NCBI RefSeq assembly: GCF_013408925.1
Contig: NZ_JACCAB010000001.1
Location: 1,426,001 to 1,490,000 of the forward strand
Length of the DNA: 64,000 nt
Direction: 5' to 3'
From: Pedococcus badiiscoriae
GTDB taxonomy: Bacteria; Actinomycetota; Actinomycetes; Actinomycetales; Dermatophilaceae
Below the pieces are notes generated by a model. That model saw only the letters and a list, made by a program, of their open reading frames with translations, made no database searches and was not told the origin of the DNA. Below are positions 16,086 to 41,139 of the stretch, piece after piece. A program made the position numbers and the translations under genes. Within the stretch, counting starts at the first letter, position 1, and each line of letters opens with the position of its first letter.

Positions 16086-16129
16086 GGTGGAGCCAAGGGG
16101 ACTCGAACCCCTAACCCCCTGCTTGCAAA
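16086..16129. repeat. Distal attachment repeat of the genomic island (tRNA-Ala 3' half copy)
   Basis: 44 bases identical to the tRNA-Ala(TGC) 3' half at the other end of the island, from the anticodon loop to the 3' terminus plus two bases. Homology ends abruptly on both sides. It marks the island's far end, giving an element of about 24.9 kb. Confidence 0.93.
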
Positions 16130-16255
16130 CTCGGCGCGAGACCTCCGGGCTGCGTCGTTCGCGCCTGATCAGCGCCGTGGATCGGATGGTGACAGCACCG
16201 CCGGGGACACCCGTTGCAGTACTTCGCTGCAGTACATCGCCCGAGGCGGGTTCAG

Positions 16256-17625
16256 TGTCGACGGCGCTCGAAAACTGAACAGTTTCGGCGGGGTGGTTTC
16301 CAGTGATCGTCGCAACGTGGTCACTCATGTTGGAGGTCATGTTGTCGTCACGTCGCGTTCGCAAGGGTCCGGGTCGAAGGCCGAAGTCGTTGGCTCGGAA
16401 GCGGTTCATGGAGTTGCTCGGACAGGGGTGGCCGATGGCTGCGGCGGCCCGCGAGGTTGGCGTGAGTCGATCGGCCGCGAACATCTGGAAGAACGGCACG
16501 ACGGTGCGACGCAAGGATGGCACGGTGAAGATCGTGCCACCGCTCGAGCCGCTCTCGCTCCGTCCGCTCTCGCCGAGGTTCCTCTCCGAACAGGAGCGGA
16601 TTCAGATCGCCGACCTAGCCAGCCGAGGCGCTGGGCCGACGGAGATCGGGAAGCAACTTGGTCGATCACCCTCGACGATCAGCCGGGAGTTGCGCCGCAA
16701 CGAGCACGGATCTGGCCAGTATCGGCCGTTCCACGCGCACAGCATCGCTGCGACTCGTCGTCGCCGGCCCAAGCCATTGAAGCTGTCGTTGAATCCGCAG
16801 CTGCGCTCTTATGTGACCGCGCGGTTGAAGGAGCGCTGGAGCCCTCAACAAATCAGCCGTGCCCTGCGTGGGGTCCACCCGGACGACCCGGCGATGCGAA
16901 TCGCGACAGGGAGCATCTACCTCGCGATCTATCGGCCCGGATCAGGGCTTCTGCGTAAGCCGGACACGTCGCCGTTGCGAACCGGTCGTGACCATCGTCG
17001 CGCGCACACCCGGATGATCCGTGCGGGGCGACGGTTCGCTCAGCCGATGCTGTCTATTCATGATCGCGATTTCGGACCCGCGGATCGCAGCGTCGCGGGG
17101 CACTGGGAGGGCGATCTCATCCTCGGTCCGCACAACCGGTCCGCGATCGGGACGCTGGTCGAACGGCAAACCAGATACGTCAAGCTGCTGCACCTGCCAG
17201 CCCACACCTCCGCGGGGCTCCACGAAGCAGTGGTCAGATCGTTCGGCCACCTCCCGCCCGGGTTACGTAGGTCGATCACCTGGGACCAGGGCACCGAGAT
17301 GGCCAAGCACCTCGACATCGCGAACGACACCGGCGCGAAGGTCTACTTCTGCGACGCCGCCAGTCCCTGGCAGCGCGGCAGCAACGAGAATACGAACGGG
17401 TTGCTGCGCCAATACTTCCCGAAGTCCACCAACTTGGCCGTCCACTCGCCAGGCGACCTCGCCCGGGTCGCGCACGAGCTCAACCGTCGCCCACGAATGA
17501 CTCTCGGTGATCGAGCGCCTGAAGACCTGTTCGACCGCCTGCTACTGTCCCAGAATCCGCCGCCGTTGCGATGACCGCTGGAAACCAAGCCGCCGAAAGC
17601 GACCAGTTTTCGGGCGCCGTCGACA
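16256..17625 (+). mobile_element. Complete IS30-family insertion sequence
   Basis: About 1370 bp. The ends are imperfect inverted repeats of nearly 48 bp, both beginning TGTCGACGGCGC and ending GGTTTCCAG internally. The five bases TTCAG stand directly outside both ends, a target-site duplication. One intact transposase gene fills it. Insertion is about 125 bp inside the island's distal att repeat. Confidence 0.92.
16303..17574 (+). CDS. IS30-family transposase
   Basis: 423 residues. An N-terminal HTH covers about 25-60, and a second HTH (EIGKQLGRSPSTISRELRRNEHG) is characteristic of IS30. The DDE catalytic core has HWEGDLILG (Asp), WDQGTEM (Asp) and SPWQRGSNENTNGLLRQYFP (Glu). No stop or shift is seen, so it may be active. 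The annotated GTG overlaps the left inverted repeat; an ATG 24 bases later (MLEVMLSSRR) is an alternative start. Confidence 0.93.
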   Translation: MIVATWSLMLEVMLSSRRVRKGPGRRPKSLARKRFMELLGQGWPMAAAAREVGVSRSAANIWKNGTTVRRKDGTVKIVPPLEPLSLRPLSPRFLSEQERIQIADLASRGAGPTEIGKQLGRSPSTISRELRRNEHGSGQYRPFHAHSIAATRRRRPKPLKLSLNPQLRSYVTARLKERWSPQQISRALRGVHPDDPAMRIATGSIYLAIYRPGSGLLRKPDTSPLRTGRDHRRAHTRMIRAGRRFAQPMLSIHDRDFGPADRSVAGHWEGDLILGPHNRSAIGTLVERQTRYVKLLHLPAHTSAGLHEAVVRSFGHLPPGLRRSITWDQGTEMAKHLDIANDTGAKVYFCDAASPWQRGSNENTNGLLRQYFPKSTNLAVHSPGDLARVAHELNRRPRMTLGDRAPEDLFDRLLLSQNPPPLR

Positions 17626-17630
17626 TTCAG

Positions 17631-18020
17631 CGCACGTGCCCCCAGTAATAGTGACGGCGCAACGTGGTCGCTCCGGGAGGCTGAGGACAACTTGCGGTCG
17701 CTGACGGACCGCCATTCGTTCACCGCCCTGAGCGATCGGTTACGGGGCATCGCCTGGGCTTTGCCGCACTGTTCGCCGCTGCCTTCACCGGCGTCGTTCG
17801 CAAAGCCTGAGAGCGACCGAGACCGATCGCCAAGAATCCTCACCCCCCTGGGCTCGTCAGGACTGGGGACGGAAGGTGCCAGGAATCGGGTGGCTGCGAG
17901 GTTCGAGATGCGAGCCGGCGCCCTCGAAACATGGGCCGGACGCTCCCAAACAGCCGTGATCAGCACAAAGGTGTGGTGCTGTCGGCAGATTGCCGACACC
18001 CGCCTTAGGAGCGAGCCCGG
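17631..18020. other. Non-coding or decayed stretch right of the IS
   Basis: About 390 bp between the IS30 duplication and the next small frame. Short frames exist on both strands, but none has a recognisable family, ribosome site or neighbour support. I see nothing definite here. Confidence 0.5.
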
Positions 18021-18431
18021 CTAGAAGAGGCCGCGTGGATTCCATTGTGCTGCAACGGTTCCTGCCTTACTTTGTGTCGGGTTGTTCGGGCTGTTTCGGA
18101 CCTTGCAGGTACCTCTGAGGTACCTATCGAGTATGGGTGCCCGCGGCGGGGGCCTCCGCCGCGTCCTCCACCTCGTCTGGGGTGGCGGGCTCGCGATATG
18201 CGCGAAAGCCACAGCTACGACCAAGACGATGAAGCCCACGGTTTCCCCGTGCTGAGAGGTCGCCATACGCCCAGGCTTATGGCCCGCAAGGTGGACGAGG
18301 AGCCATCGCCTGCCGGCCCAGGTGGTGACGGTCCACACGGTGGCTCCCCGCACTCCCCGCCAGCTGCGGAACCCAAGTCGACGCACGCGCGTGCGATACG
18401 GGACGCAGATAGGTTCGCGCTGCCATTCCAT
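18021..18431 (-). CDS. Doubtful small membrane protein
   Basis: A 136-codon frame with one hydrophobic segment (GFIVLVVAVAFAHIA, about 66-80) followed by an Arg/Pro-rich tail. It lies 96 bp downstream of the next gene on the same strand. The Arg-rich composition and lack of a ribosome site make it uncertain. The 5' half looks like the complement of a high-GC frame. An internal start at MATSQHGETVG would give a more sensible 81-residue product. Confidence 0.3.
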   Translation of the reverse strand: MEWQREPICVPYRTRVRRLGFRSWRGVRGATVWTVTTWAGRRWLLVHLAGHKPGRMATSQHGETVGFIVLVVAVAFAHIASPPPQTRWRTRRRPPPRAPILDRYLRGTCKVRNSPNNPTQSKAGTVAAQWNPRGLF

Positions 18432-18527
18432 GATGTGGGACGGCCAGGGAGAGCCACCGACCCGATAGCGGAGAGTGGAGCGCAGGGTCGGCGGCGGGGT
18501 GAGGTTGCCCGAACAGATCGCGATGAC

Positions 18528-19139
18528 CTAGTTGTCATCAGGCAAGGCGTAGACGTCCACGGGCCCCCGCTTACGCAGTTCGCGAAGGTGGTTGGCGAAA
18601 TCGCGCCTGGCATCGGAGAGGCTATTGGTGGCGTCCTGGACTTTGTGTGCTTCGGGTCCTGGCAAGCCGCGCGCGGCCGTGACGACAAACCCCGTTGGGC
18701 CTCGTCGCTGTCCCGGCAGAACGGCAACCGCCAGAGCCTTTGCGGCCCGGAGTACTTGGTTGCAGAGGACGACGGTCTGCTGGTCTGCGTGAAGGACGAC
18801 CCGCGCGCCGGCCATGTGCATTTGCTCTTGGTCGTCAATGAGCGGCGCAAGTATGTCCAAAGGGTCGGCGGCGCGGCGGAGTCTCGCAAGGACGGCGAAG
18901 TTCCCGGCCGGGTGGCTTTGCCCTTGGAGTACCGCGGACCACAGGCGGGAGCGGTCGATCATCGTCAGCCCCTTCGTCAGGACGACTTGAGCCGCAGCGA
19001 AGAACTCATCATCTTGTGCCGCTCTGGCGCGACGCCGCTCTTGCAGTAGAACGGCCCCGACCGATGCGGCTCCCGTGATGGCGGAGGCGAGCAGTGCAGC
19101 TCCGGCGCTGATCAGGGCAATGGTGATTATGTCGGACAC
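18528..19139 (-). CDS. Hypothetical membrane-anchored protein
   Basis: 203 residues with an N-terminal TM helix (ITIALISAGAALLASAITGAA, 5-25), then a cytosolic helical domain with HMAGARVVLHADQQTVVLC and a charged C-terminus. Start GTG. Proteins of this layout are common on actinobacterial mobile elements, but I know no function. It is divergent from the HD/ATPase gene. Confidence 0.65.
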   Translation of the reverse strand: MSDIITIALISAGAALLASAITGAASVGAVLLQERRRARAAQDDEFFAAAQVVLTKGLTMIDRSRLWSAVLQGQSHPAGNFAVLARLRRAADPLDILAPLIDDQEQMHMAGARVVLHADQQTVVLCNQVLRAAKALAVAVLPGQRRGPTGFVVTAARGLPGPEAHKVQDATNSLSDARRDFANHLRELRKRGPVDVYALPDDN

Positions 19140-19247
19140 GCAGGCAACGTATCGGGGCGGGGTGACATACGGGCATGGGTGGCTTGAACGCAGACGTGGT
19201 TGCCGGAGCGCTCATCCAAACGGGTGGGCGCTTTGTGTGTACGGGCG

Positions 19248-19340
19248 TGGGGTGCGGTGGGGTGCGAGCAGGGCGCGAAGCGCCGGTAGCGCGGGGCCAC
19301 ATCGCGGGGTCCCACGGCTCCCGGCGAAGCCGCGCTTGAG
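19248..19340 (+). repeat. Hairpin-rich intergenic repeat, copy A
   Basis: About 93 bp sharing a common pattern with copy B downstream of the next gene: GGGTGCGGTGGGGTGCG, then CAGGGCGCGAAGCGCC, then CATCGCG, then CGGCGAAGCCGCGCTTG. It contains the tight hairpins GGCGC-GAA-GCGCC and CGGC-GAA-GCCG. Both copies are in the same orientation as the gene they flank. Confidence 0.8.
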
Positions 19341-19465
19341 CCAGTAGAGAAGTCCTCACGAAGGCGGCAGTTTCTGGACGTCAGGAACAAAGATGCACGT
19401 TACGGCTAGATTGTGGCGGAAACGGCGCCGTGGCCGCCGGGTGCCAAGCGTGGCGGAGGAGCAGG

Positions 19466-22219
19466 GTGTACACGGACAGCGAAACTTGGAAGCGGACCCT
19501 GGCAGACGGGCCCGAGGGCTCACCTCATCAGGCTGAGCGACAGTTCTTTCGCGATAGATACGAACAGTTCAGATCCCGGGTGGAACCACTCGCGAGCGAA
19601 ATTGCGAGCAGCGTTCCGGGCTACACGGATCATTCAATCTTGCATTGCGACAGCCTGTGGGACATCACCGACGTTGTTGTGGGGCTCGACCTGCCACTGA
19701 ATCCCGCCGAGGCATTTGTTCTCGGTGGCGCGTTCCTCGTTCATGACCTTGGCATGGGGTTGGCTGCCCACAATGTCGGCCTGCGGGGCATTCTTGAGCG
19801 TGAAGACTGGCTAGACCTTCTCGCGGGCATGTATCCCGATGACTTTCGCGAGTTGCAGAGAGTGGCGTTATCAGATTCCGAGTCCAACCCAAATTGGGAC
19901 GGACTCACAAACCAGCGGGTCAAGACCGCACTCACCGTATTCTTGCGAGAGCACCATGCCGAACAGGCCGAAAAGATCCTTACCCAGCAATGGAAACTGA
20001 CGAACAACGACAACTTCTACCTCTTGGAAGACTCCGAACTCCGTCACTGGTATGGAGACTTGATCGGGCGGATCGGCCGCAGCCACTGGCAGTCAGTGGA
20101 GGAGTTGGCGTCCCTCTTTCCTCAAGCGCTCGGAGCCCTGCCGCGAATGCCTCCTGCTTGGACTGTGGAGCCCCTCAAGTTGGCCTGTATCCTCAGATGC
20201 GCAGACGCAGCACAGATCGATGCGCGCCGGGCGGACCCACTTCATACGCCATTCCGCAATCCTCAAGGTGAGTCGCGAGATCATTGGGTCTTTCAGGAGC
20301 GACTGCTGCATCCGCAAATAGCCGAGGGACGGCTCGTCTATACCAGCAGCGTGGACTTCACGGTTGAACAGGCGTCTGCATGGTGGTTGGCATTCGATAC
20401 CGTGCGAATGGTGGACTCTGAGCTGGGCAAGGTGGATGCTCTGTTCGCGGATCTTAACCGGCCACGCTTCCTGGCTCGCGGGGTAGCAGGCGCGACTTCG
20501 TCGAAGCGCTTCGCAAATTATGTTGGCGCGGAAGGGTGGGACCCGATTGACGCCCGTCCTGTCATCTCCGACACGAGATCCGTTATCAAGAGTCTTGGAG
20601 GCAGGGCTCTCTATGGGGGGCGTGACGAAGTCGTGTTGCGTGAGCTAGTCGCGAACGCTGTTGACGCTACCCGCCTTCTGGAGGCCGCATATCCCTCGGC
20701 CCGAACTAGACCGGTGCGCGTGAGTGTGAATAGAATGGAAGATGCAGACATTCTGACCATTCAGGATTTCGGAATAGGAATGTCTGCACAAGAAGTCGTT
20801 TCCTATCTTTGCGACTTTGGTCGCTCCGGATGGGTTAGCCATGCCACTAGAGGCCATTACCCCGGCGCCTTAGCGTCGGGGTTTAGGTCTACTGGTCAAT
20901 TCGGGATCGGATTTTACAGTTCCTTTATGGTCGCAGACGACGTCACGGTGGTAACCCGGGAAATGACCGGAGGACCTGGTGACACCGTAATTCTCCATTT
21001 TGCGGATGGTCTGGATTCTCGACCCATCTTGCGTGAGGCAGCGAGAAGTGAGTGGCTCCTTGAACCTGGTACCCGTGTGACGCTGCGGCTGCGGGAGCGC
21101 ATGGAGGGACGACATGGGGTCTTCGCGGGCACGGCCCCCGAGCGCACGCAGGAGGTGCTTGTCGAACGGGTGCAGAAGTTAGCTCGTCTAAGTGATCAGC
21201 CTATTGAGGTGACCGTTAACGACGCCGAGCCGCGAGCTTGCGAGTTGATTGGTTCACGTTGGCTGGACATGCCGGCTGTTGAGTTCTGTGCGTTGCTGCT
21301 GGGTCTCGGACCCGATTCAAGGTCGGCGCCGGGGCTTGACGAGTTGCTAAGTGAACTTGCACGCCGCATGTCGCCGATTCACGACAAGGGCGGAGTGGTT
21401 GTGGGTCGTTTGGCGCTCACGATTGGTCTCGAAGAGGCAATGCCACGGAGTCGGGAACGTGGGGCGACCATCTATTGCGGCGGGTTCGAGAGCGGTCAAT
21501 TGTCAGGTGCCCTTGGGATACTGACGGGGAAGCCGGAGACGGCCGCTCGGGAGTCGTCCACGCTCGAACTGAGTAGGGATGAGGTGTGGCGCTGGTTTCG
21601 CGATCAGGTCTCATTGATTGCTGAAGAAAATCTCACTGACTCGGATAGATTCACGCTCCAGCGGGAGGCCCTCTCAATGGGCGAGCGTATGGACGACTGG
21701 CCGATCGGATGGACGTCCGCGGGCCCTATCACAGCCGATCAGTTGGTTGCTTGGGCAAAGGCGCGTAGCGAGGTGACCATCCTGGACGAACTCTCGTCCG
21801 TATTCGACCTCGCCGAGGGTACGTTTGGATTTTTGGATATTGAGGCCCAAGGATATGTGGAAATACCTGACGATGCGGTCGGAATTCCATGGGGATTTGA
21901 CTTCTTCTTGGCGCACGAGATAGATGGTCGGCAACAAGATGAGTTGGATGGCCTTGAGGCGATCAACCGTGATGTTGAGCCCGGAATATCTCTCGCGAGC
22001 TGGTGGGTACTAGCGAACGACGAGCCGGTGGGTGAGATCTTGCGCCTTCTCTCGAAGACGTGGGACAGAGATCTTGTTTCTCTCATGCAAGATATTGAGT
22101 TCCGCCAAAACTATTCAGAAAAAGGCCCGATTTTGCTCCAGGCGCACAATTCGAGGACTGGCAGATTCAACGGACTGATCGTTAGGCGCCGCCCGCACGG
22201 GGAGGGTGGATCCGACTAG
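19466..22219 (+). CDS. HD-domain protein fused to an Hsp90-like (GHKL) ATPase, probable defence protein
   Basis: 917 residues from GTG, chosen because GGAGGAG lies just upstream. Residues 50-255 form an HD-type phosphohydrolase domain (H56/H60, H93-D94 in FLVHDLGMG, distal D247 in RCADAAQID). Residues 370-580 carry a GHKL ATP-binding fold: LRELVANAVDATR (E393, N397, D400), IQDFGIGMS and GQFGIGFYSS, as in Hsp90/HtpG. The remaining 330 residues have the Hsp90-like middle pattern and a unique end. Similar HD + Hsp90-like fusions are found in bacterial conflict loci. Codon GC is clearly lower than in the core. Target and activity are unknown. Confidence 0.8.
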   Translation: MYTDSETWKRTLADGPEGSPHQAERQFFRDRYEQFRSRVEPLASEIASSVPGYTDHSILHCDSLWDITDVVVGLDLPLNPAEAFVLGGAFLVHDLGMGLAAHNVGLRGILEREDWLDLLAGMYPDDFRELQRVALSDSESNPNWDGLTNQRVKTALTVFLREHHAEQAEKILTQQWKLTNNDNFYLLEDSELRHWYGDLIGRIGRSHWQSVEELASLFPQALGALPRMPPAWTVEPLKLACILRCADAAQIDARRADPLHTPFRNPQGESRDHWVFQERLLHPQIAEGRLVYTSSVDFTVEQASAWWLAFDTVRMVDSELGKVDALFADLNRPRFLARGVAGATSSKRFANYVGAEGWDPIDARPVISDTRSVIKSLGGRALYGGRDEVVLRELVANAVDATRLLEAAYPSARTRPVRVSVNRMEDADILTIQDFGIGMSAQEVVSYLCDFGRSGWVSHATRGHYPGALASGFRSTGQFGIGFYSSFMVADDVTVVTREMTGGPGDTVILHFADGLDSRPILREAARSEWLLEPGTRVTLRLRERMEGRHGVFAGTAPERTQEVLVERVQKLARLSDQPIEVTVNDAEPRACELIGSRWLDMPAVEFCALLLGLGPDSRSAPGLDELLSELARRMSPIHDKGGVVVGRLALTIGLEEAMPRSRERGATIYCGGFESGQLSGALGILTGKPETAARESSTLELSRDEVWRWFRDQVSLIAEENLTDSDRFTLQREALSMGERMDDWPIGWTSAGPITADQLVAWAKARSEVTILDELSSVFDLAEGTFGFLDIEAQGYVEIPDDAVGIPWGFDFFLAHEIDGRQQDELDGLEAINRDVEPGISLASWWVLANDEPVGEILRLLSKTWDRDLVSLMQDIEFRQNYSEKGPILLQAHNSRTGRFNGLIVRRRPHGEGGSD

Positions 22220-22711
22220 TCATCCAGGCGCGCGCCGGCCCCCTCCTCCCCAGCGCAGTAGGAGGCGATGACCGCCCTATCTGAGAGCAGGGTCCTGGTA
22301 CAGAAGCGAGCGCTGCTCTGCTGTTTGCGCTGGGTGCGGTGGGGTGCGCACAGGGCGCGAAGCGCCCGGACCGCGAGGCGCCATCGCGCCCCGCGCTTTC
22401 GCGGCGGAGCCGCGCTTGTGTCGACGACGCTTGAAAGCGAGGCCATAGCGTCGCAACGGCCTCATATTCGAGCGACGTCGACAGCTTGAAACCCAGTAAG
22501 GAAATTCCTCACGAGACATCCACGTAGGCACGCCGACCTTGGCCGTCACCCACCAACTGGCCAGGCACGCCCAGCTCGCTCGGTGAGCCCAGTGCCCAAC
22601 CCCAGCCGGCGTGCGTGCCTCATTCGGAGGCCATTTCTGTGGAAAGAGAGAGGCCGGCGCGGCGACGGGTAAGCGGCCTTGCCGGACTCTGGCGCGTAGT
22701 AGCCTCACAGG
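22220..22711. other. Intergenic stretch between the HD/ATPase and the two-TM gene
   Basis: 492 bp. The first third contains repeat copy B. The rest has no credible frame on either strand. Promoters for the plus-strand gene that follows are expected here, but no confident -35/-10 pair can be named; TAGTAG about 10 bases before the ATG could serve a near-leaderless start. Confidence 0.6.
22332..22418 (+). repeat. Hairpin-rich intergenic repeat, copy B
   Basis: About 87 bp matching copy A upstream of the HD/ATPase gene in order and spacing of its blocks: GGGTGCGGTGGGGTGCG, CAGGGCGCGAAGCGCC, CATCGCG, CGGCGGAGCCGCGCTTG. The hairpins GGCGC-GAA-GCGCC and CGCGGC-GGA-GCCGCG are kept although bases differ, suggesting selection on structure. 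It lies about 110 bp after the gene's stop. Confidence 0.8.
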
Positions 22712-23722
22712 ATGTACGACGGGGACGGGGAGTGGGTCTGGACCGAAGAAGAGGAGCTTGCCTCCCAATCCTTCGGTCAGTTGATGGATGCCTGGACGGA
22801 TGCCGCCAGTCGCGTACGTGCGAATGCCCAGACGATGTCAGACGACGAGTACAAACAGGCCGTGCTCACTTTCGTCAATCAGGTCGAACGAATATTGGGC
22901 GCCTTCGCGCAAGAAGGGCGCGGAAGCGCCGCCATTCTGGAACTCGGGCTCCTTGACTTGATCGTAAACATGACGAGCAACCTCGTTCCGCAGTCCATGG
23001 ACATGAGGGCCTTCCTCCAAAGCAGCTCTGAGGTAGCAGCAATACTCAGCGACTTCTTCGCTCGGTCGCTAAACAACATTGCCTCCAACTCCAATCCCGT
23101 GGGCGTGCAGATGCAGCGCCGTTTTCCACAGTTGATCGACGCCCTGAGTACTGGTCGACAGAGCGCCATACTCCTGTCGGAAGAGATGGGTCAGCAGCAA
23201 TTGGGCCACCTGCTCGAACGAGCAAACGAGGTGGCAGACACCCTTGAGCAGACCGCGGGAGACAAGGCTTCCGAAGCTCTGTGGCACCACTTTGATCAGT
23301 ATGCAAGCGCCGAAAAGGGGCGAGCGGACGCGCTCCAGTTCATCGGCGTGGTCCTCGTGGCCGCGGGAGTTGTCTCGGCGGCCTTTGTCTTGAAGATGGC
23401 GGGTCCGAGCCTGGAATGGTCCGCTGAGCTTGCGCGGGTTTTTCTGACGCTGCCCATCTTCGGCCTATCCGCGTACGTGTTCAGAGAATCCGGTCAACAC
23501 CGTGTGGCCGCACGGCTCGCACAGGAAACGTCTGTCAGGTTGAAGACCTTCAAGCTGTTTAGCGAGGACCTCCCAACGGAAGCGCGTCACGAATTGCGCG
23601 CCGACTTCGGACGGCAGATCTTCTCCCAGTCTCCACTGGTGCTATCCGACGTGGGGAGTTCAGAGTCCGCGGCGATCACAGCAGCTATCGGGACCGTTGC
23701 TACCCTGCTTGCTCGAAAGTAG
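22712..23722 (+). CDS. Helical protein with two central TM segments, unknown function
   Basis: 336 residues. An acidic start (MYDGDGEWVWTEEEE) is followed by about 190 residues of amphipathic helices. Two TM helices follow (IGVVLVAAGVVSAAFVL about 211-227, and VFLTLPIFGLSAYVF about 243-257), then a 75-residue C-terminal cytosolic helical part. No catalytic motif is visible. The helices-plus-2TM layout resembles membrane-disrupting effectors of defence loci, but this is inference. It converges on the HEPN gene with a 51-bp gap. Confidence 0.7.
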   Translation: MYDGDGEWVWTEEEELASQSFGQLMDAWTDAASRVRANAQTMSDDEYKQAVLTFVNQVERILGAFAQEGRGSAAILELGLLDLIVNMTSNLVPQSMDMRAFLQSSSEVAAILSDFFARSLNNIASNSNPVGVQMQRRFPQLIDALSTGRQSAILLSEEMGQQQLGHLLERANEVADTLEQTAGDKASEALWHHFDQYASAEKGRADALQFIGVVLVAAGVVSAAFVLKMAGPSLEWSAELARVFLTLPIFGLSAYVFRESGQHRVAARLAQETSVRLKTFKLFSEDLPTEARHELRADFGRQIFSQSPLVLSDVGSSESAAITAAIGTVATLLARK

Positions 23723-23773
23723 TCGGGTACAAGCGCAGGACAGGTCCCTCATTGCGCTTGTCCTTGCTGGTAG

Positions 23774-24406
23774 CTACGGGCGTGAAGTCAGTTCCGCGTC
23801 CAGCCAGAGTAGAAAATCGCGAAGGACCAGGGCAGACGTATCCAGCCCCGTCCGCGTAACGCCTAAGCGATTAGAGGACGGTGAGATGTTGTAGCCAGCA
23901 GCCTTTAGTTGAGCTCTGGTATTGACTAGTTTGGGGCCTCGTAGTTGCCTCGGGGTGAATGAACCAACTCCGTGCACCACGGCGTTTCTGGCCTCAATGA
24001 TGGCTTGCAGTCGCTGGTCTTGGGAAAAGTTGGAGAATTTCACACCACTCGCCCACTGTTCATACGCCGCTCTCATGCGTGGCCAGCTGGACGTCGAGAC
24101 TTCTTCTGTCTGCGTGTACATGTGTTCAATCAGTGAAGTTCGCGGGGGAGGAGCGCCGCGCTCAAGTCGCCGGATAAGTTCAGCGCTAGCGAACGACTCC
24201 GCTATCGAGACAAGTCTCACGAGGCTCGACTCGCGCCGGACTTGTCCTGCCGCAGCGTCGGTCGGCAGAACGCTCAGCCGTCCCGCAATTCTGCCTCCGC
24301 CCGCGAGTGCGACTTCCGCTCGACGATGCTGAGCCAGGCTCGTCATGAGAGACCTAACGTACGTTTCGCACCGAGCGGAGGTGACGGGAGGAAAAGCCGC
24401 CGTCAT
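23774..24406 (-). CDS. HEPN-domain ribonuclease-like protein coupled to a reverse transcriptase
   Basis: 210 residues. The HEPN signature R-x4-H is present as IIEARNAVVHGVG (R140, H145), with upstream helices including LVSIAESFASAELIRRLERG and a conserved-looking SWPRMRAAYEQWASGV, as in RiboL-PSP-type HEPN proteins. HEPN proteins are commonly metal-independent RNases acting as toxins or abortive-infection effectors. The ATG overlaps the RT stop as ATGA, so the two are translated in a fixed ratio. A frame extending 25 codons further upstream is not needed. In AbiA a HEPN domain is fused at the RT C-terminus; here it is separate. Confidence 0.85.
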   Translation of the reverse strand: MTAAFPPVTSARCETYVRSLMTSLAQHRRAEVALAGGGRIAGRLSVLPTDAAAGQVRRESSLVRLVSIAESFASAELIRRLERGAPPPRTSLIEHMYTQTEEVSTSSWPRMRAAYEQWASGVKFSNFSQDQRLQAIIEARNAVVHGVGSFTPRQLRGPKLVNTRAQLKAAGYNISPSSNRLGVTRTGLDTSALVLRDFLLWLDAELTSRP

Positions 24407-26031
24407 AGCTGCGCTGGCTTTCGGCGAATGATTCGGGACGGCCGCCCCCACGGTTGCTCGGCCGCCCAAGCCGCCTGCCACCTTTCGATCTGTGTGTCAG
24501 CCTCAACCGGGAGCTTGCTCACGCCGCGCGCCGCGGCCAGGGCGATGAGAGCGGTCGGTTTGTGTACTAGCGGCAGGCGCTGGTATGCCTCCGCGGCGAC
24601 GACGGGATCGAGCTTCCGCCGTTGCGCCAGTGCGAGAATCGCTTGGGCAGCGACGGCGGGGTGTTGGCCGTCTACCTGATCGCGAAGCCACTCAATGTGC
24701 GCGGTGCCGCCACGGGATCCGGTCACGGTGCCCGCGCAGTGACTGACCCAAAGGGCCTGCCACACGCTTACGATACGGCGGTTGCAAACAAGGTCCAGCG
24801 TCTCGCTGATCATCGTGGGCTCATCGGCAGAAAGAGCGGTGAGGTAGTTGCACAACTGTGGCGTCATGTGTGGTTCGCGCACCAAGATGGAGGTGACGTG
24901 GGGCATCGCGGCTGGGTCATTGCCCGCGCCAAGGACAAGAAGCGCCTTTTGGATGAGAGCTGACCTAGTGGTTCGGCTCCACGCAATCCCCGCAGTGGTG
25001 GCTGCATCCTCGTCGTTCCAGTAATGGACGACCAGAGCGGCAGCCTCTAGTTGCGTCGAGGTTGGCTCAAATTCTTCGTCGCCGCCGGAGGGTGGGGGAT
25101 CGATCTCGTCGTCATTTACGCCTGGCGACGTCACCCCGAGGGAATCGCTCTCGTCCTCCTCGGCCGTGTCTTCGTAATGAACTTCGGGAAAGAAGAAGTC
25201 CTCCAACTCGGTGTCGTTTTGGCCGTCCTTGAGAGCCGCAAAGATGTCACGTTCGGCGGAGTCCGTTTCTTTGAGGCTCGCCTCGTAGGTCTCGCGGTGG
25301 GGGGTAGTCGTCTTGGCCTCGTTGAGTACGAGGCCAAGTTCGTGCGCGCTGCGCTCAGCAAGTTCAAGAGCAGCCAGTGCTTCGTTGTACGTCCGGCACG
25401 CGACTCTGAAGTCGTCGGCGTAGCGGACCGTGTCGAACTGACCGCGAAGCAGGCTCCGGCGGATCGGCTCGACATACAGGTCGCCAAGCACGTCCGACGG
25501 CTGAGTCATTTGTGGGAGCCCAAATTTGCGCCTGCTCACCGCCTGCAAAATGCCCAAGGCACCCGTGATAGCCACGTCATCACCGGTCTGCGCAACGACC
25601 TCGTCGGCGAGCCGCTCGTGGTCCACATATTGATAGAACGCCGCAATGTCGGTCTTCAACACAAACTTGCATTCGTCGCGCGTCAGGGGAAACTGCACGA
25701 AGTCGTTGTAGGCTTCCCGTCCACGCTCCGGCCGAGGAACCCGATCCGCGATCAGTGCGACGAGTGCGCGATACAGGAGGCGGTCTTGTAGGGCTATGTA
25801 GGGGAGCGGCCGCGAGCCTCCGCCAGATTTTCTCGCCATGACTGTGTCCATCAGGGCGGGAGTTAGGTCGCGCCTCGCCAGAGACTTGAGTGAAGCCGTG
25901 AGCTCCTTCTTCCTCGGCGTTAGCGCAAGATCGCCGTAGTTGGGGGGCATAAACCTATTGACGGACGCCAGCTCCGCCGCCACGGCGCCTCCGTAATCGA
26001 TTTCGTCGACGAGGGTATTCGGGAGTCGCAT
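24403..26031 (-). CDS. Abi/UG-type reverse transcriptase with C-terminal helical repeats
   Basis: 542 residues. RT motifs are in order: KSGGGSRPLPYIALQDRLLYRAL (69-90 region), catalytic KTDIAAFYQYVDHERL with D128, FGLPQMTQPSDVLGDLYVEPI (170-190), RYADDF with D206-D207, then LGLVLNEAKT. No maturase (X) or HNH domain follows, so it is not a group II intron enzyme. Residues 260-325 are an acidic linker, and 326-535 are repeated helices like the alphaRep part of AbiA/AbiK/UG class 1 enzymes. Ribosome site GGAAGGAA precedes the ATG. The HEPN partner follows directly. A role in phage abortive infection is inferred from the family. Confidence 0.9.
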   Translation of the reverse strand: MRLPNTLVDEIDYGGAVAAELASVNRFMPPNYGDLALTPRKKELTASLKSLARRDLTPALMDTVMARKSGGGSRPLPYIALQDRLLYRALVALIADRVPRPERGREAYNDFVQFPLTRDECKFVLKTDIAAFYQYVDHERLADEVVAQTGDDVAITGALGILQAVSRRKFGLPQMTQPSDVLGDLYVEPIRRSLLRGQFDTVRYADDFRVACRTYNEALAALELAERSAHELGLVLNEAKTTTPHRETYEASLKETDSAERDIFAALKDGQNDTELEDFFFPEVHYEDTAEEDESDSLGVTSPGVNDDEIDPPPSGGDEEFEPTSTQLEAAALVVHYWNDEDAATTAGIAWSRTTRSALIQKALLVLGAGNDPAAMPHVTSILVREPHMTPQLCNYLTALSADEPTMISETLDLVCNRRIVSVWQALWVSHCAGTVTGSRGGTAHIEWLRDQVDGQHPAVAAQAILALAQRRKLDPVVAAEAYQRLPLVHKPTALIALAAARGVSKLPVEADTQIERWQAAWAAEQPWGRPSRIIRRKPAQL

Positions 26032-26676
26032 GGTTCCTTCCGTTTCTTCGGGAATGACTTGGTTGCCTCAGGTCTCGCTCTCCGGCCGTGCCTGGGTCGA
26101 CCGAGCCGCGCCGACGATTAATCGCATTCTGGTCGAATCGCGAAGGGTCCGCCTGGCGGAGTGCGCGACTTCGGTGACTGCCACAGTCAGTGAGGTAGGG
26201 GGCAGAGACGCGTGCTCGGAAGGAGTATCCAGACGATGGTCGCCCAAAGCCGAAGGGCCTGAAACACCAACGCGCGGTGCAGGGTTGGGGGCCTCGTGGA
26301 CAAAGCATCGCTCAAGTTCTTCCCCGGTGCCTTCGTGACGTCACGGGGCAGGCGCTTGGTGGTCGCATCGACCGGGATCACGGAGCCGACCCAACTCGAG
26401 GCTGGCCCTTGTCTGGATGAGTCGTGACCCCCGCACGCTCGTATGTTGTCACGATCGGATGGCGCTTGGGCCTGTTTCTACACATTTGGGAGTCGGTCAG
26501 AGGCTCAACGAGGGCATCGCATCGCGAAGTCGCTGGAGAAACCAGGACGTACCACTGACGAAAGACGCTCACAGCTAACCCATCGAAGGTCTGTGGCCTC
26601 CGTCGTCTCCTGTGCCGAGGGTGTCTCCCGGCTGCATCGGGGAGGTCTGATCGGTGCGCTGCCATGGCCGGATGCC
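26032..26676. other. Gap upstream of the RT gene
   Basis: About 645 bp without a credible gene. Frames on both strands are Arg/Ser-rich and lack ribosome sites. The stretch should contain the RT-HEPN promoter and possibly an RNA used by the RT. I cannot identify either by eye. Confidence 0.5.
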
Positions 26677-26915
26677 TCACGGTCGGCGATGAAGGCGGCG
26701 CATGGCTGGTCGTTCGCGAACGACGGTCCCTCGTCGTCGAACCGGGGTCACCAGACCCTCGGCCTCGAGGAGGGCAACGGCGTTGCGGCCGGTCTTGACG
26801 TTGACCCCGAACTCGCTGCCAGGTCGTCCTGCTTGGCGGAGTGACCCGGGGCTGTACTCGCCCGCTTAATCTCGACGCGCAACTGCGCCGCAAGCACTCG
26901 ATCGCCACGCCGCTC
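26677..26915 (-). pseudogene. Decayed GntR-family regulator (winged-helix part only)
   Basis: Two frames joined give a typical GntR winged helix. RVLAAQLRVEIKR and QDDLAA are in one frame, then EFGVNVKTGRNAVALLEAEG and LVTPVRRRGTVVRERP in the next, ending at TGA after about 45 codons. A single missing base near 26815 separates them. No proper start codon and no effector domain remain. GntR regulators are frequent on actinobacterial integrative elements, so this is probably the element's lost regulator. Confidence 0.7.
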
Positions 26916-26962
26916 CGAGCAAGGAGTGTTAAGAATTACCCGGACCTAACGTCCCGCCTATC

Positions 26963-28450
26963 TCAATCTGCATCGCTTAGACGTGCTTCCAAGGCAGCGG
27001 CGACAGCCTCGAACTCGGCCAGTGCGGCGGTCAGGTCCTCGACGATCTCCCTGGCGATGACCTCGGGTGCGGGCAGGTTGTCGAGATCCTCGAGTGAGTC
27101 GTCCTTGAGCCAAGTGATGTCGAGGTTGGCCTTGTCACGGGCGACGATCTCGTCATATGTGAACGACCTCCAGCGCTCGCTCTCCTGCCGCTCCGACCGA
27201 GTCTCTGACGTCTTGTATGCCGCGACGAAGTCCTCTAGGTCGGCCCGGCGCAGCGGATTCTGCTTCAGGGTGAAGTGCATGTTGGTGCGCAGGTCGTAGA
27301 CCCACAGCCGCTCGGTCCACGCCTTGCTCGGGCGGGCGACCTTCTTGTCGAAGAACAGGACATTGGCCTTGACGCCTTGGGCGTAGAAGATGCCGGTGGG
27401 TAGGCGCAGCACTGTGTGCAGCTCGTAGTCGTCGAGCAGCTTTCGGCGGATCGTCTCGCCTGCTCCGCCCTCAAAGAGCACGTTGTCGGGCAGCACGACG
27501 GCCGCGCGACCGTTGCTGTCGAGGATCGTCATGATGTGCTGGATGAAGTTGAGCTGCTTGTTGCTCGTCGTAGCGACGAAGTCCTGACGTTCGATTTCAC
27601 GGTCCTCGCGGACGTCGCGCCCGTCCGCCCCGACCATTGTGACCGACGACTTGCGCCCGAAGGGCGGGTTCGACAGGACCACAGACCAGCGCCGGCCGGG
27701 GTCGACAATCAGCGAGTCCCCGACCTCGATGAGCGAGTCCCCGTTGGACGTTCCCATGCCGTGCAGGAGCAGGTTCATCGCTGCCAGGCGTGCGGTGCCG
27801 TCGACGAGCTCGTAGCCGCTGACCAGCCCATCGCGGAGGTGGTCGCGCTGCGTGGGAGTCATGGATGCGGCTCCCTGCCCCGCGTGGTCGTGGGCGACGA
27901 GCAGGAATCCTCCCGTGCCGCATGCGGGATCGACGACCGTGTCGGCCACGGTCGGTTGGATGACGTCGACGATTGCCTGGATCAGTGCGCGGGGTGTGAA
28001 GTACTGACCGGCTCCGGATCCCTTGTCCGATGCGCCCTTCGAGAGGAGCTCCTCGTAGGCGTCACCCTTGATGTCCGTCCCTGCTTGTGACCAGTTCTCC
28101 TTGTCGATGAGGTCGACGATCAGACGCCGGAGCTTTGCGGGGTCCTGGATGCGATTCTGGGCCTTGCGGAAGATGGTGCCGATGACGCCCTTCTCGCGAG
28201 CCAGACCGACGAGGATCTTGGTGTAGGTCAACTCGAGCTCGTCACCTTGGGCATCGAGCACCCGCTGCCACGAGTACTCGTCAGGGACGATCTGTTCGGC
28301 CGCGAGCTTCCGCGTCGCGCGCTCGTGAGCCATCTTGAGGAAGAGCAGGTAGGTCAGCTGCTCCGTGTACTCGATGACGCCAACACCGTCATCGCGTAGG
28401 ACGTCGCAGTACGACCACAGCTTGTCGACGAGTCGCCGTGCGTCGGTCAT
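26963..28450 (-). CDS. hsdM: Type I restriction-modification DNA methyltransferase subunit
   Basis: 495 residues. N-terminal helical HsdM domain (LWSYCDVLRDDGVGVIEYTEQLTYLLFLKM), SAM-binding motif I DPACGTGGF (174-182) and catalytic NPPF (261-264) for N6-adenine methylation, preceded by GQYFTPR. It forms M2S with HsdS for host protection and target recognition. It is the last gene of the operon hsdR-hsdS-nuclease-fic-hsdM and overlaps the fic stop by 4 bases, so it is placed after two unusual insert genes. Confidence 0.95.
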   Translation of the reverse strand: MTDARRLVDKLWSYCDVLRDDGVGVIEYTEQLTYLLFLKMAHERATRKLAAEQIVPDEYSWQRVLDAQGDELELTYTKILVGLAREKGVIGTIFRKAQNRIQDPAKLRRLIVDLIDKENWSQAGTDIKGDAYEELLSKGASDKGSGAGQYFTPRALIQAIVDVIQPTVADTVVDPACGTGGFLLVAHDHAGQGAASMTPTQRDHLRDGLVSGYELVDGTARLAAMNLLLHGMGTSNGDSLIEVGDSLIVDPGRRWSVVLSNPPFGRKSSVTMVGADGRDVREDREIERQDFVATTSNKQLNFIQHIMTILDSNGRAAVVLPDNVLFEGGAGETIRRKLLDDYELHTVLRLPTGIFYAQGVKANVLFFDKKVARPSKAWTERLWVYDLRTNMHFTLKQNPLRRADLEDFVAAYKTSETRSERQESERWRSFTYDEIVARDKANLDITWLKDDSLEDLDNLPAPEVIAREIVEDLTAALAEFEAVAAALEARLSDAD

Positions 28451-29460
28451 TTGATCCTCTTACCCTTGATCTTTCGGTACACGTCGACTGCCTTGCCTGA
28501 GCTGCGCCAGACCCCGTCCGAGCCTTGGAATGCGTCCAGCCTTCCTCGCTGAGCCGCCTGCCGAAGGGCCGCAAGACTGAACTCGTCACTCACCAGTGCC
28601 GCCAAGGGCACCATGCGAGCAGGACCAGCGACATTCGGCACGATGAAGCGGTTGAGGTTGTCATACATCGCTCGGGCGAGCAGCTCTCCGAGAGGTCCGT
28701 TGTCGCCATCGTCAGCCTTCTGGAGTGCGGAGAGGTATGCCGCGCGCTGCTGCTTCAGGATGACGACCGGTGGGTAGCCGAGCCGGACGAGTACGAGGTT
28801 CAGGACGAGCCGGCCGCTGCGACCGTTGCCGTCGATGAACGGGTGGATCCGCTCGAACTGGTTGTGGACCCGCGCCAGCATCTCGGGGAGAGGCGAACCG
28901 GGTTGTGGGATACGGAGGCTTTCCTCTTGCGTCCTGAGCTGGTCGACCCAGGCGAGAATCTCCGCATCCACGAGGGTCCACGCCGGCGGCGTCATCCCCG
29001 CCCCGAACGGGTGGATGTCGTGCTGGCGGAAGTTGCCCGGGCCCTCGCCGTCGTGGGCGTCCTGATGCGGAGCAACTTGCCACACTGGGTTCATCGCGAG
29101 GAGATGGATGTTGCGGATCTCGTTGACGGAGAGCAAGGACCCGTCGTGCCAGTCGCCCGGTTCCAACGCCTGTGCGTACACCCACTTGGCGGCGTCGGCG
29201 TAACCCTTGACTTCGAGGTACTCCTTGAGCGGCTTGGCCCCCACTGTCTTGCCACGGTCGAGAAGCTCTTCGACCTCGCGCAGGACCAGGGTGTTGCCTT
29301 CCAGGGCTGTGGAGTGGTGGGCCTCCAGGTGCCATATGTCGGACCAGATTGCCTCGGACTCCTTCGGCGAAGGCAGGCCACCAAGGCGCTCGCGCAGATC
29401 TGCGAGCGCGGAGTCGAGGCGGGCATACACCGTTGCTCGTGATGGTCGACCACGCTGCAC
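28447..29460 (-). CDS. Fic-domain protein (AMPylase family) within the type I restriction operon
   Basis: 337 residues. The inhibitory motif STALEGN (50-56) is N-terminal, marking class II Fic proteins. The catalytic loop HPFIDGNGRSGR (206-217) is intact, with the catalytic His. The C-terminal 90 residues (LVSDEFSLAALRQAAQRGRLDAFQG) look like a small DNA-binding/HTH-type extension. Fic proteins mostly transfer AMP to target proteins. Here it overlaps the hsdM start and follows an AT-rich operator-like gap, suggesting it regulates or is regulated with hsdM. Its target is unknown. Confidence 0.93.
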   Translation of the reverse strand: MQRGRPSRATVYARLDSALADLRERLGGLPSPKESEAIWSDIWHLEAHHSTALEGNTLVLREVEELLDRGKTVGAKPLKEYLEVKGYADAAKWVYAQALEPGDWHDGSLLSVNEIRNIHLLAMNPVWQVAPHQDAHDGEGPGNFRQHDIHPFGAGMTPPAWTLVDAEILAWVDQLRTQEESLRIPQPGSPLPEMLARVHNQFERIHPFIDGNGRSGRLVLNLVLVRLGYPPVVILKQQRAAYLSALQKADDGDNGPLGELLARAMYDNLNRFIVPNVAGPARMVPLAALVSDEFSLAALRQAAQRGRLDAFQGSDGVWRSSGKAVDVYRKIKGKRIK

Positions 29461-29553
29461 GAGTGCTCCCTAAGTTGATATGGGCTTGAGCGAGCTAAAG
29501 TATCTTATCGACTCTGTTGATAGAGCATGAACGTGCCCAATTGATCTAATCAA
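29461..29553 (-). promoter_or_regulatory. AT-rich operator-like region upstream of fic-hsdM
   Basis: An unusually AT-rich 90-bp gap in an otherwise tightly packed operon. It holds repeated GTTGAT-type half-sites (29474-29479, 29516-29521) and the palindrome TTGATCTAATCAA (29541-29553) that overlaps the stop of the nuclease gene. A palindrome plus extra half-sites is typical of an autoregulator operator, and an internal promoter for fic-hsdM is likely. No binding protein is proven. Confidence 0.6.
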
Positions 29554-30485
29554 CTTGCCTCGTAGCTCAAGTGGATTAACGGCTGGGCGCGCGCCAAGTC
29601 CGCCGCGTTGCGCACCCGGATCTCCAGATCGCCAGTCCCGTAGTGCCCGACCTGACGCACGTCTCGCGTGAAGCCCTCGACGAGGTCCACCGTGTCGGGA
29701 TCGACCTTGACGTAGAGAGCCAGCTCACGACTACGGGACAACACCTCCACACACAGGAAGTTCTTGAGCCGGCGGTACGCCACGTAGTACTTGAGCGTCT
29801 TCTGCGTGACGTCGTCACCCAAGGCCGCGGCATAGGCGTCGAGCTCCAGGTAGAGGTCGCGCAGGTCCGGCGGCGACTGCTCTAGGTACTCGGTAACCGT
29901 CTTGTATGTCTGCGACCCCCCGGGAGGGGTCATCGAGGGGGCGACGGCATCAGGCGCGCCGGTCGACGACGTCGCGTCGATCCGGCTGGAGTGGACGAGC
30001 TCGAGGGCTAGGAGCTCGCCAGAAAAGTCCCGGTAGCGCACGAGGTCAATGCTGCGGTTGATCTGCTGGACGGCGTGCTCGTCGTACTTCGTGAACCCGC
30101 TTGCGACGCAGATGAGGCGCGGGTTGCGCCAGTCGATCGCCGCCGCGGCATCGGGCCCAAGGCGATCGTGGACGAGGACCTGGAAGTCGCCACGGTGATC
30201 CATCAGCCAGTCGAGGTAGAACAGGCCTTGGTTGATTACGCTCTCGTTGACGGCGCGCTTGTACTCGAAGATCACCGGGGACGAGTTCTCGTCGATCCCG
30301 ATGGAGTCCATGCGGCCGCCGTGCCTTGGCCCGGTGGAGAACTCCGACTGCAGCAGGCGCACCCCGAACAGCGTCTCCATGTTGTCTTCGATGACTGTCT
30401 GGAGCGACTTCTCCAGCGCAACCGACGCACTTGGCAACTCAGTCGCCGTGCCGTGGATCAGGCGAAACAGCTTGAGGTCAGACAT
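29550..30485 (-). CDS. PD-(D/E)XK-fold protein with DUF5655-like C-terminus
   Basis: 311 residues from MSDLKLFRLIHG; a longer frame is not needed, since this start overlaps hsdS by 8 bases. Residues 25-100 show a nuclease-like core: GRMDSIGIDE (D60) and VIFEYKRA (E74, K76), then NQGLFYLDWL. The C-terminal half (about 205-305) carries the DUF5655 pattern LDAYAAALGDDVTQKTLKYYVAYRR. Such proteins are often found in restriction operons, function unproven. It may act as an accessory nuclease or a DNA-end sensor. Confidence 0.8.
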   Translation of the reverse strand: MSDLKLFRLIHGTATELPSASVALEKSLQTVIEDNMETLFGVRLLQSEFSTGPRHGGRMDSIGIDENSSPVIFEYKRAVNESVINQGLFYLDWLMDHRGDFQVLVHDRLGPDAAAAIDWRNPRLICVASGFTKYDEHAVQQINRSIDLVRYRDFSGELLALELVHSSRIDATSSTGAPDAVAPSMTPPGGSQTYKTVTEYLEQSPPDLRDLYLELDAYAAALGDDVTQKTLKYYVAYRRLKNFLCVEVLSRSRELALYVKVDPDTVDLVEGFTRDVRQVGHYGTGDLEIRVRNAADLARAQPLIHLSYEAS

Positions 30486-31821
30486 CCGCGAGCTCCTCGA
30501 TGACCTCTTGATCGGCATGCCGACCGGTCAGCCTTCCCGAGAACGCGGCGGCAAGCAGCGCCCGACGGAGCCCCAGACACCTGGTCCGCGCCGATTTCAA
30601 CTCTGCTGCCACTCGGTCCACTGACGCGAGCTGGCCGTGCAGCTCCTCAACGATTGCGCGCGATAGGTCCCCTGGAGGGACTATGACGGGCATTCTGCGG
30701 ATCATCGAGAGGCTAATGGAAGCGAGGTTCACGCTCTGCTTGCCGTTGCGCTCGGCCCAGCGCCCCCCGATCGTGTTTGCGGTCCACGAGAGGAAGTACG
30801 GGTCCAAGTCGCCACGGACCCGAGCGCGGAAGACGTGGTTCTGATGGATGCAGTCATCGACCTGTCCCGCCCAAACCCATCCCCGAGCAAGCTTGTCCCT
30901 GTCGCCGCCCTCGTTCAAGAGGACGTCTCCTGGCTCCAGCCTTAGCGCCTCCGCCTTGGAGGGAGCGACGCGAATCGTGGTCACATTCTCGAGTCTGAGC
31001 TCGGCACGCTGAACGTTCGCCACGCGGAGGTAGGGCACCTCAACGAAATCCGGATTGGACTGCTTGTTGGCGTCCTTGGTAACGCCCCCGGCCACGTCCG
31101 CAACCTCGCCGAGCCGGCGCCACGCCCAGCCAACCGGCAACGTGGGCAAGTCACCGTCTCGCGTTCCCGCCTCGATGAGGTCAGGTGCGTGACGCTGGCC
31201 CGAAACGCCTGAGCCTGTGATGGCATCTCTCACGAGTCGCTCACGGAGGACTGCCATACGGCGCTGTGCATCGACCAACCCAGCGTCCGCCGCGTCGAGG
31301 CGGGACAGGTGGTCCTCGAGGATTTCGACGATCCGCCGCTGTTCGTCCAGGCAAGGCAATGGAACTTCGAGGCGCACGTACTCGCTAGCCTTAATGTTCC
31401 GGATGTTGGTGGACGCGGTTTGCATCGTCGCCGTTAAGCCCGAGGCGTGGAAGTGGTTCAGGTAGAAGTGTAGGAACCTAGGTTCGACTTGGTCTTGATC
31501 CGGCCGAAGCAATTGCATGAAGTTGGCACAGATTGAAGGTTCTTCGAGCCCCATCACCAGCCCGACTCGACCGACTGGCGTCGTTGGCCCACCGCCAGAC
31601 TTTTCTAGAAGTAGGTCACCCGGACGCAGTTCGCGTGTGAGCAGTTGGCGCTTGGAGATCGACCGAAGGGCGGCTGTTGAGACGTTCAACCTTCCATGGT
31701 TCTTCAACTCGGTCACGCGAATGACTCTGACGTCGACCTCACCCGAGCCAGCCTCACCACCCCAAACACCACCAATGGTTGTCTCCAAGAGCGCCGCAAG
31801 GGTCGCGCGGTTCCAGCTCAT
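30478..31821 (-). CDS. hsdS: Type I restriction specificity subunit
   Basis: 447 residues with two target-recognition domains. TRD1 spans about residues 1-150, then the central conserved helix (PCLDEQRRIVEILEDHLSRLDAADA). TRD2 begins LPTLPVGWAWRRLGEVADVAGGV and is followed by the distal helix ending in LRRALLAAAFSGRL. The halves recognise the two parts of a split target sequence, which cannot be read from sequence. It overlaps hsdR by 4 bases. Confidence 0.93.
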   Translation of the reverse strand: MSWNRATLAALLETTIGGVWGGEAGSGEVDVRVIRVTELKNHGRLNVSTAALRSISKRQLLTRELRPGDLLLEKSGGGPTTPVGRVGLVMGLEEPSICANFMQLLRPDQDQVEPRFLHFYLNHFHASGLTATMQTASTNIRNIKASEYVRLEVPLPCLDEQRRIVEILEDHLSRLDAADAGLVDAQRRMAVLRERLVRDAITGSGVSGQRHAPDLIEAGTRDGDLPTLPVGWAWRRLGEVADVAGGVTKDANKQSNPDFVEVPYLRVANVQRAELRLENVTTIRVAPSKAEALRLEPGDVLLNEGGDRDKLARGWVWAGQVDDCIHQNHVFRARVRGDLDPYFLSWTANTIGGRWAERNGKQSVNLASISLSMIRRMPVIVPPGDLSRAIVEELHGQLASVDRVAAELKSARTRCLGLRRALLAAAFSGRLTGRHADQEVIEELADV

Positions 31822-34577: not shown

Positions 34578-34629
34578 CAGACGTCACAGTAGGCCGAACG
34601 CCGTCTACCTTGCGCAGCTTTGCGCCGAT

Positions 34630-35874: not shown

Positions 35875-36167
35875 CGTCGGCTCCTCATTTGGCCTCTCGA
35901 CAGGAGAGGAAGGTTTGGGGGCCGGTGCGACCACCAAGCAAAGGCGGAGAGCTCAGAAGGATGAGACACCTACCCCACCACACCTGAATCCCCCAACGCG
36001 CGCCACGTTACCTCTGGGCCGCACCCGACTTCAGGGCGTTCGGCCAGCTTGCGCGCTCGGCCTCCTGCTGAGACCCGAAGGCTAGGTGCAGAACCGCCGA
36101 ATGCCTGAGGGGCGTTTTGCTGAGCCGCCTGTCGTCGCAGTCGCGTCATGGGTAGCGCGCCCTCGGG
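35875..36167. other. Gap between relaxase and hypothetical gene
   Basis: About 290 bp between two same-strand genes, with no credible frame. It probably holds the promoter for the hypothetical gene and the relaxase terminator. No structure stands out. Confidence 0.5.
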
Positions 36168-40931: not shown

Positions 40932-41026
40932 GCCAAACTGCAGTACTTATTTGCAGTACGAGGCTGAAATCAACGGCATCGGGGACATTGCTCGGGATCT
41001 GCAAGCCTCTGAACTGCGGAAATGTG

Positions 41027-41070
41027 GGTGGAGCCAAGGGGACTCGAACCCCTAACCCCCTGCTTGCAAA
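41027..41070. repeat. Proximal attachment repeat inside tRNA-Ala
   Basis: 44-bp copy of the att core, covering the 3' half of the intact tRNA-Ala gene. It is identical to the distal copy and offset by 24,941 bases. Integration at this position keeps the tRNA whole because the element brings its own 3' half. Confidence 0.93.
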
Positions 41071-41101: not shown

Positions 41102-41105
41102 CGTC

Positions 41106-41130: not shown

Positions 41131-41139
41131 AGGATGCTG

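Follow-up and report, generated by a model that had tools for sequence, protein, structure and literature searches.

A UG22 reverse transcriptase gene coupled to a HEPN gene in an integrative element of Pedococcus badiiscoriae, with a candidate priming tyrosine

We analysed a window of 64,000 nucleotides from Pedococcus badiiscoriae (contig NZ_JACCAB010000001.1, positions 1,426,001 to 1,490,000 of the forward strand) and confirmed that it carries a real and well-conserved two-gene module, which consists of a reverse transcriptase (RT) of the UG22 group and a HEPN-domain protein encoded by a separate, overlapping gene (Table 1). The pair has been catalogued before; we now propose Y286, the only tyrosine in the acidic linker of the RT, as its candidate priming residue. 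With about even confidence, we read the pair as an anti-phage module in which DNA built by the RT would control a HEPN RNase dimer without the help of a non-coding RNA. The original prediction, made from the letters of this DNA, had described an RT of the UG/Abi defence type with intact motifs, an acidic linker, helical repeats and no maturase part, and beside it a HEPN gene with an intact R140/H145 motif coupled by an ATGA overlap. These features were all borne out by the results given below. Its further claim, that the operon is an unfused relative of AbiA, proved too narrow, as the pair forms a catalogued group of its own.

The motifs D128, GLPQ (residues 171-174) and YADD (residues 204-207) are all intact in the translation of the RT gene. 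An alignment of RT homologues (A1) was built with 48 rows including the query, eight of 56 homologous proteins having been left out as short or partial. No row has a destroyed active site, as D128, D206 and D207 are invariant in 48/48. When the RT was compared with the PADLOC library (PADLOC-DB 2.0.0, 2023), the best profile was RT_UG22 with 465.4 bits (6e-140), which assigns the protein to UG22 and marks it as a UG/Abi-type defence RT. The profiles of UG21 (101.1 bits), UG20 (82), DRT8 (79.5) and AbiA (25.9) scored lower. The UG/Abi classes were reportedly introduced by Mestre et al. in 2022. RVT_1 was the only Pfam family above its cut-off, and no NCBIfam model was above its cut-off for either the RT or the HEPN protein. 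An assignment to group II intron RTs or maturases was rejected, since the model TIGR04416 gave 62.8 bits against a cut-off of 300 and Pfam showed no maturase domain.

The structure model of the RT, with a mean predicted local distance difference test (pLDDT) score of 88.6, shows the linker followed by the helical repeats. The score falls below 50 at residues 282-307 and 314-318. The model aligned with DRT6, DRT4, UG15, AbiK, Abi-P2 and AbiA over 372-435 residues; the RTs of group II introns and of diversity-generating retroelements aligned over about 220-265 residues, mainly in the RT domain. A HEAT-like helical domain follows the RT domain in the model and both domains align to DRT6, DRT4 and AbiK, which is the arrangement given for Class 1 UG/Abi RTs in the defining passage of PMC12489045. 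The predicted fold is thus of the Class 1 DRT/Abi polymerase type along its full length.

The HEPN protein matched the PADLOC profile RTasHEPN, which is filed under DRT, with 120.3 bits (1.7e-35), and the same profile matched all seven HEPN proteins of a second alignment (A2). The open reading frame (ORF) called mechanically has an earlier start, the GTG at 24481, but the ATG that overlaps the RT gene is the one that agrees with the relatives. Pfam listed nothing for the protein, a comparison of its sequence with PDB gave nothing credible, and a protein search with the single sequence returned no match at E ≤ 0.001. A profile search found nine proteins. The R-x4-H motif is intact in 21/21 HEPN sequences, of which 15 belong to a third alignment (A3) and six come from further loci; a protein of 178 aa (P0058) was left out of A3 because it was considered identical to the HEPN of L040. 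R140, N141 and H145 are kept in all 12 intact loci. The model of the HEPN protein has a mean pLDDT of 88.5. The top VIA-align rows for it were HEPN-fold proteins, mostly toxins, with a moderate structural match, and the nearest folds were toxins of HEPN-MNT pairs, in which the partner is a minimal nucleotidyltransferase (MNT). AbiA was not among these rows, which excludes nothing. Foldseek with the same model returned nothing at E ≤ 0.001, and weak gasdermin matches headed its list. The signature of HEPN RNases, R-x4-6-H within a HEPN fold, is thus present in the form of an invariant motif, the RTasHEPN match and the structural match. The invariance of R-x4-H favours an active RNase without proving activity.

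The pairing of the two genes recurs among relatives, as the original prediction would lead one to expect. Eighteen loci with an RT matching the A1 profile were examined (the window, L002, L038-L044 and L064-L072). In 13 of them the RT gene is followed by a HEPN gene on its own strand, which is immediately adjacent in 12 and set apart by an insertion in L065; no HEPN was found by profile in the other five (L041, L042, L069, L071 and L072). In the relatives scanned, RT_UG22 and RTasHEPN were likewise the best profile matches. Among the 12 intact loci, the distance from RT stop to HEPN start varies between -28 and +4 bp; 11/12 overlap and 6/12 do so by exactly 4 bp, counts that depend on the starts chosen for the HEPN genes. 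A tree of RT domains was made with the query, 11 of the other 47 A1 homologues and 22 outgroup rows, which came from part of 94 genomes with weaker RT matches and from two viral contigs. One branch (98/89) sets apart the 13 HEPN-bearing loci, and the five HEPN-less loci form another clade (98/89); the 22 other RTs split off with 96/79, below the starred threshold. PADLOC assigns the RTs of the HEPN-less clade to UG22 as well (252-376 bits). The active site of that clade reads GDD; in the other loci the residue preceding the aspartates is A, N, S, T or V.

Distances among the RTs and among the HEPN proteins were correlated (Mantel r 0.862, with 0 of 9999 permutations as high), which would be expected of two genes passed down together. 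In two pairs of loci the ratio of nonsynonymous to synonymous substitution rates (dN/dS) was 0.16 and 0.24 for the RT and 0.25 and 0.28 for the HEPN gene. These values are rough because dS is high (0.97-1.81), and they suggest that both genes are under purifying selection. From these sequence comparisons we conclude that the RT and the HEPN gene are inherited together as one two-gene unit. When L065 (genome G1183) was compared with L066, an insertion of about 1.5 kb was found near RT codon 404, with flanking matches that overlap by 4 bp; the HEPN gene there is intact, and the insertion may silence it too.

The RT family is rare. The RT was found in 4/396 genomes of the order at E ≤ 1e-40, its own genome included, in 9/298 genomes of a second order at 1e-30 and, by single sequence, in 2/394 genomes of the class at 1e-30, its own again included. 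The HEPN gene was sought in the four genomes with RT matches of at least 250 bits, including that of P. badiiscoriae, and the 94 other genomes (at most 117.7 bits) were left out. RTasHEPN gave five matches at 1e-5 in 396 genomes of the phylum. Two of these are strong (120 bits in the window and 108 bits in G316) and both adjoin a UG22 RT. The other three (G342, G105 and G347, 28.6-37.2 bits) were taken as other HEPN proteins, as no such RT was present within the 5.9-7 kb retrieved. The RT-HEPN pair is also present on two Rhodococcus plasmids. Two scans of viral contigs revealed no close relative and two distant RTs.

The linker between the RT domain and the helical domain, of which the composition was counted over residues 262-327, contains on average 32% D/E and 2.4% K/R in the 48 aligned homologues. 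A linker tyrosine is present in 48/48 (1.10 on average), although these are related rows and not 48 independent observations. It stands at one aligned column in 42 of the 46 rows that have a residue there, and in 44/48 at least one of the next two residues is acidic. Residues of similar frequency are less universal in the linker (N in 29, H in 31, R in 33 and I in 38 of 48). Among the 13 HEPN-bearing loci, at least one linker tyrosine was found in 12 and none in L070; the linker of L068 has three tyrosines and is not acidic. A tyrosine likewise occurs in this part of the alignment in the five relatives that lack HEPN, within a stretch that is less acidic (about 22% D/E and 11% K/R). Since the tyrosine occurs in relatives without HEPN, a general role in priming fits better than a HEPN-specific one. 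In AbiA, the loop of residues 290-310 between the RT and helical domains carries Tyr298, described as the main priming residue in the relevant part of PMC11077055, and the priming tyrosine of AbiK, Tyr44, lies in a long loop according to the corresponding passage of PMC9508834. By this positional parallel, Y286 would be the counterpart of Tyr298. Alternatively, the linker tyrosine may be part of a docking motif. A simple electrostatic pairing of the HEPN protein with the acidic linker was not supported, as the net charge of the HEPN protein ranges from -4 to +10 across the 12 intact loci and is not consistently positive.

The surroundings of the RT gene were searched for an associated RNA. In BLASTN comparisons, the collinear homology between L038 and L039 begins 15 bp ahead of the RT start and continues to the HEPN end, and that between L066 and L067 begins 15 bp ahead of the L066 RT start and runs into the HEPN gene. 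The two plasmids share other stretches at places that do not match, and two of these stretches reach the upstream side of one RT; the window gave no BLASTN match with L043. Rfam had no match in 22000-29500, and no match to a sigma-70-type promoter was found in 23600-27000. A MAFFT alignment of seven upstream regions contained no block that was conserved by eye and four invariant columns, a result read without a significance test. Because the collinear homology begins only about 15 bp before the RT in both locus pairs, no conserved adjacent RNA appears to accompany the RT in the tests made, which might overlook a different kind of RNA. Membership among the retrons is unsupported, in view of the missing Rfam match and of the lack of a collinear conserved upstream stretch in the two pairs. 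A gap of 931 bp lies upstream of the RT (26032-26962) and contains two ORFs without a Pfam match.

The closest known system is the combination of UG22 and RTasHEPN in PADLOC-DB 2.0.0, for which the same two profiles are the best matches in neighbouring genes; no difference was found. Since the RTasHEPN profile is filed under DRT, the association of a HEPN protein with such RTs was known to the makers of the 2023 library, and the pairing is already catalogued. No experimental study of UG22 was found in the literature searched. AbiA of Lactococcus shares with the module an RT domain, a helical domain and HEPN, and the overall fold of the RT part is similar. However, its HEPN domain is fused in one polypeptide, carries R-x6-H and is reported to be inactive, whereas the window has a separate HEPN gene with R-x4-H. 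In the sections of PMC11077055 that concern this domain, no RNase activity was seen in vitro and R-x6-H mutants still defended, which indicates that an R-x-H motif alone is not enough for RNA cleavage. Membership in AbiA was rejected, as its profile gave 25.9 bits against 465 for UG22 and the window has two ORFs rather than one polypeptide.

Three other systems resemble the module in part. DRT1 (UG1) also combines an RT with an enzymatic effector, and protein-primed DNA controls the effector there, as it may here; it differs in belonging to Class 3, in its nitrilase effector fused in one protein and in its serine primer. The account in part of PMC13275509 is that untemplated protein-primed DNA activates the nitrilase, and that in the form of an adduct this DNA keeps the enzyme dormant within a filament. 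The type IX retron-Kva2 likewise has an RT operon with a HEPN effector, but it needs a non-coding RNA and multicopy single-stranded DNA together with a winged-helix protein, and its HEPN lacks the canonical motif. There, a HEPN dimer is kept inside an RT complex and set free by a phage protein, as stated in the portion of PMC13405049 that treats this retron. HEPN-MNT pairs share the HEPN fold and a two-gene layout with a possible regulator; in the window the coupled gene encodes an RT and not a minimal nucleotidyltransferase.

In the mechanism that we propose, the RT would synthesise DNA without a template and prime it from Y286 in its own linker, just as AbiA uses Tyr298, and the HEPN protein would dimerise into an RNase that is held inactive by the RT or by the DNA adduct of the RT. 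Phage infection would alter the DNA synthesis or the adduct and so free the RNase, which would cut host RNA (tRNA or mRNA) and stop the infection. The working mode is likened to those of DRT1 and type IX retrons, but it would involve two proteins and no non-coding RNA. The original prediction had also suggested that a toxic RNase is governed by DNA synthesis or by the state of the RT; this is plausible, and DRT1 and the type IX retron are nearer precedents for it than AbiA. The analogy with AbiA gives a toxic RNase no support: the part of PMC11077055 cited above describes the AbiA HEPN as inactive in vitro. A further reading, which we consider rather unlikely, takes UG22 as a two-protein, RNA-free counterpart of retrons, in which the acidic linker and its DNA would dock on the HEPN RNase dimer and lock or unlock it, so that interference by a phage would lead to RNA cleavage. 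In almost all loci examined that have HEPN the linker is strongly acidic, and in the UG22 clade without HEPN its acidity is much weaker. L068, with a non-acidic linker, is an exception and made us lower our estimate for this reading slightly.

The module may alternatively work like AbiA, with HEPN as a structural subunit that dimerises the RT and is needed for polymerisation, without cleaving RNA, so that the DNA product alone defends. This is possible, although we are inclined to doubt it. According to PMC11077055, the AbiA HEPN dimerises the polymerase, which loses its activity when the domain is removed; the domain shows no RNase activity, and defence can do without its R-x6-H. Moreover, DRT4, a single protein with a fold among the closest to the RT, is reported in part of PMC13213688 to defend by synthesis of single-stranded DNA. 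On the other hand, the invariance of R, N and H in the intact loci and of the motif in all HEPN sequences speaks against such a subunit role, and so do the top structural rows, most of which are toxins of the HEPN fold. The HEPN is also a separate gene here, and effectors are often encoded by separate genes. The overlap and co-inheritance of the genes, and the closeness of the HEPN fold to toxins of HEPN-MNT pairs, would suit a plain toxin-antitoxin system as well, in which the RT fold serves as a protein antitoxin for HEPN and polymerase activity is of little importance. We regard this as improbable, because the catalytic aspartates are kept in every RT homologue, the RT has a low dN/dS in both locus pairs, and the intact HEPN beside the broken RT of L065 argues against a strict antitoxin role. 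Least probable is a retron-like or Class 2 system in which a non-coding RNA template is encoded beside the RT. The upstream gap would offer room for it, and DRT2, 3, 9 and 10 use such an RNA according to parts of PMC13213688 and PMC12632851. Nevertheless, the collinear homology in the two locus pairs reaches from about 15 bp before the RT to no further than HEPN, Rfam gave no match, and the fold is of the Class 1 type.

How untemplated, protein-bound DNA gives phage defence is an open question for several Class 1 RTs, including AbiA and AbiK. With a separate effector candidate that has a recognisable active site and with a single conserved loop tyrosine, the UG22 module makes this question addressable by point mutants (YADD, Y286F and R140A/H145A) and a binding assay. 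The same question is harder to approach in fused or single-gene systems.

Table 1. Positions in the window of the RT-HEPN module and of the element that carries it
Feature	Position	Strand	Basis or detail
UG22-group reverse transcriptase, 542 aa	24403..26031	-	PADLOC RT_UG22, structure model, fold matches
RT parts: RT domain ~1-267; disordered acidic linker ~268-324; all-helical C-terminal domain 325-525 (residues)			model
YADD catalytic motif, RT residues 204-207	25411..25422	-	translation
Acidic linker, RT residues 268-324, with single tyrosine Y286 (codon 25174-25176), candidate priming residue	25060..25230	-	
ATGA shared by the RT stop and the HEPN start (translational coupling)	24403..24406	-	sequence
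HEPN-domain protein, 210 aa, R140-x4-H145 (RNAVVH)	23774..24406	-	PADLOC RTasHEPN, model
Integrative element carrying the module, ~25 kb	16086..41070	.	44-bp perfect direct repeats
Type I restriction-modification cargo	26963..34577	-	hsdM 26963-28450, hsdS 30478-31821, hsdR 31818-34577
TrwC-type relaxase next to integrase	36168..39128	-	Pfam TrwC 1.7e-76
Tyrosine integrase beside tRNA-Ala	39672..40931	+	Pfam Phage_integrase 3.3e-14

The module lies within an integrative element bounded by 44-bp repeats (16086-16129 and 41027-41070), which are exact and occur in two copies in the window; the latter copy is the 3' end of the tRNA-Ala gene. With its integrase and relaxase genes, the element is probably mobilisable. 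The G+C content, taken in 2-kb steps, is lowered in most of the element: it is 0.58-0.67 at 16-36 kb, 0.67-0.69 at 36-42 kb and 0.68-0.71 outside. Genes for tRNA-Ala, tRNA-Ile, gyrA and gyrB stand together beyond the element (41027-47135), indicating that it was inserted beside the gyrase genes. The neighbourhood of defence genes supports, by association, a defence role of the module.

Next to the RT-HEPN module, a gene at 19430-22219 encodes a protein of 929 aa with HD-CE and HSP90-like HATPase domains, and it is followed by a gene for a 336-aa protein without a family above the cut-off (22712-23722). These two genes may make up another defence pair. Between hsdM and hsdS (28447-30518) lie genes for a Fic-domain protein and for a DUF5655/PDC-S18 candidate. 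Just inside the left repeat, at 16303-17574, a gene encodes a protein of 423 aa with helix-turn-helix and rve integrase-core domains, as found in transposases.
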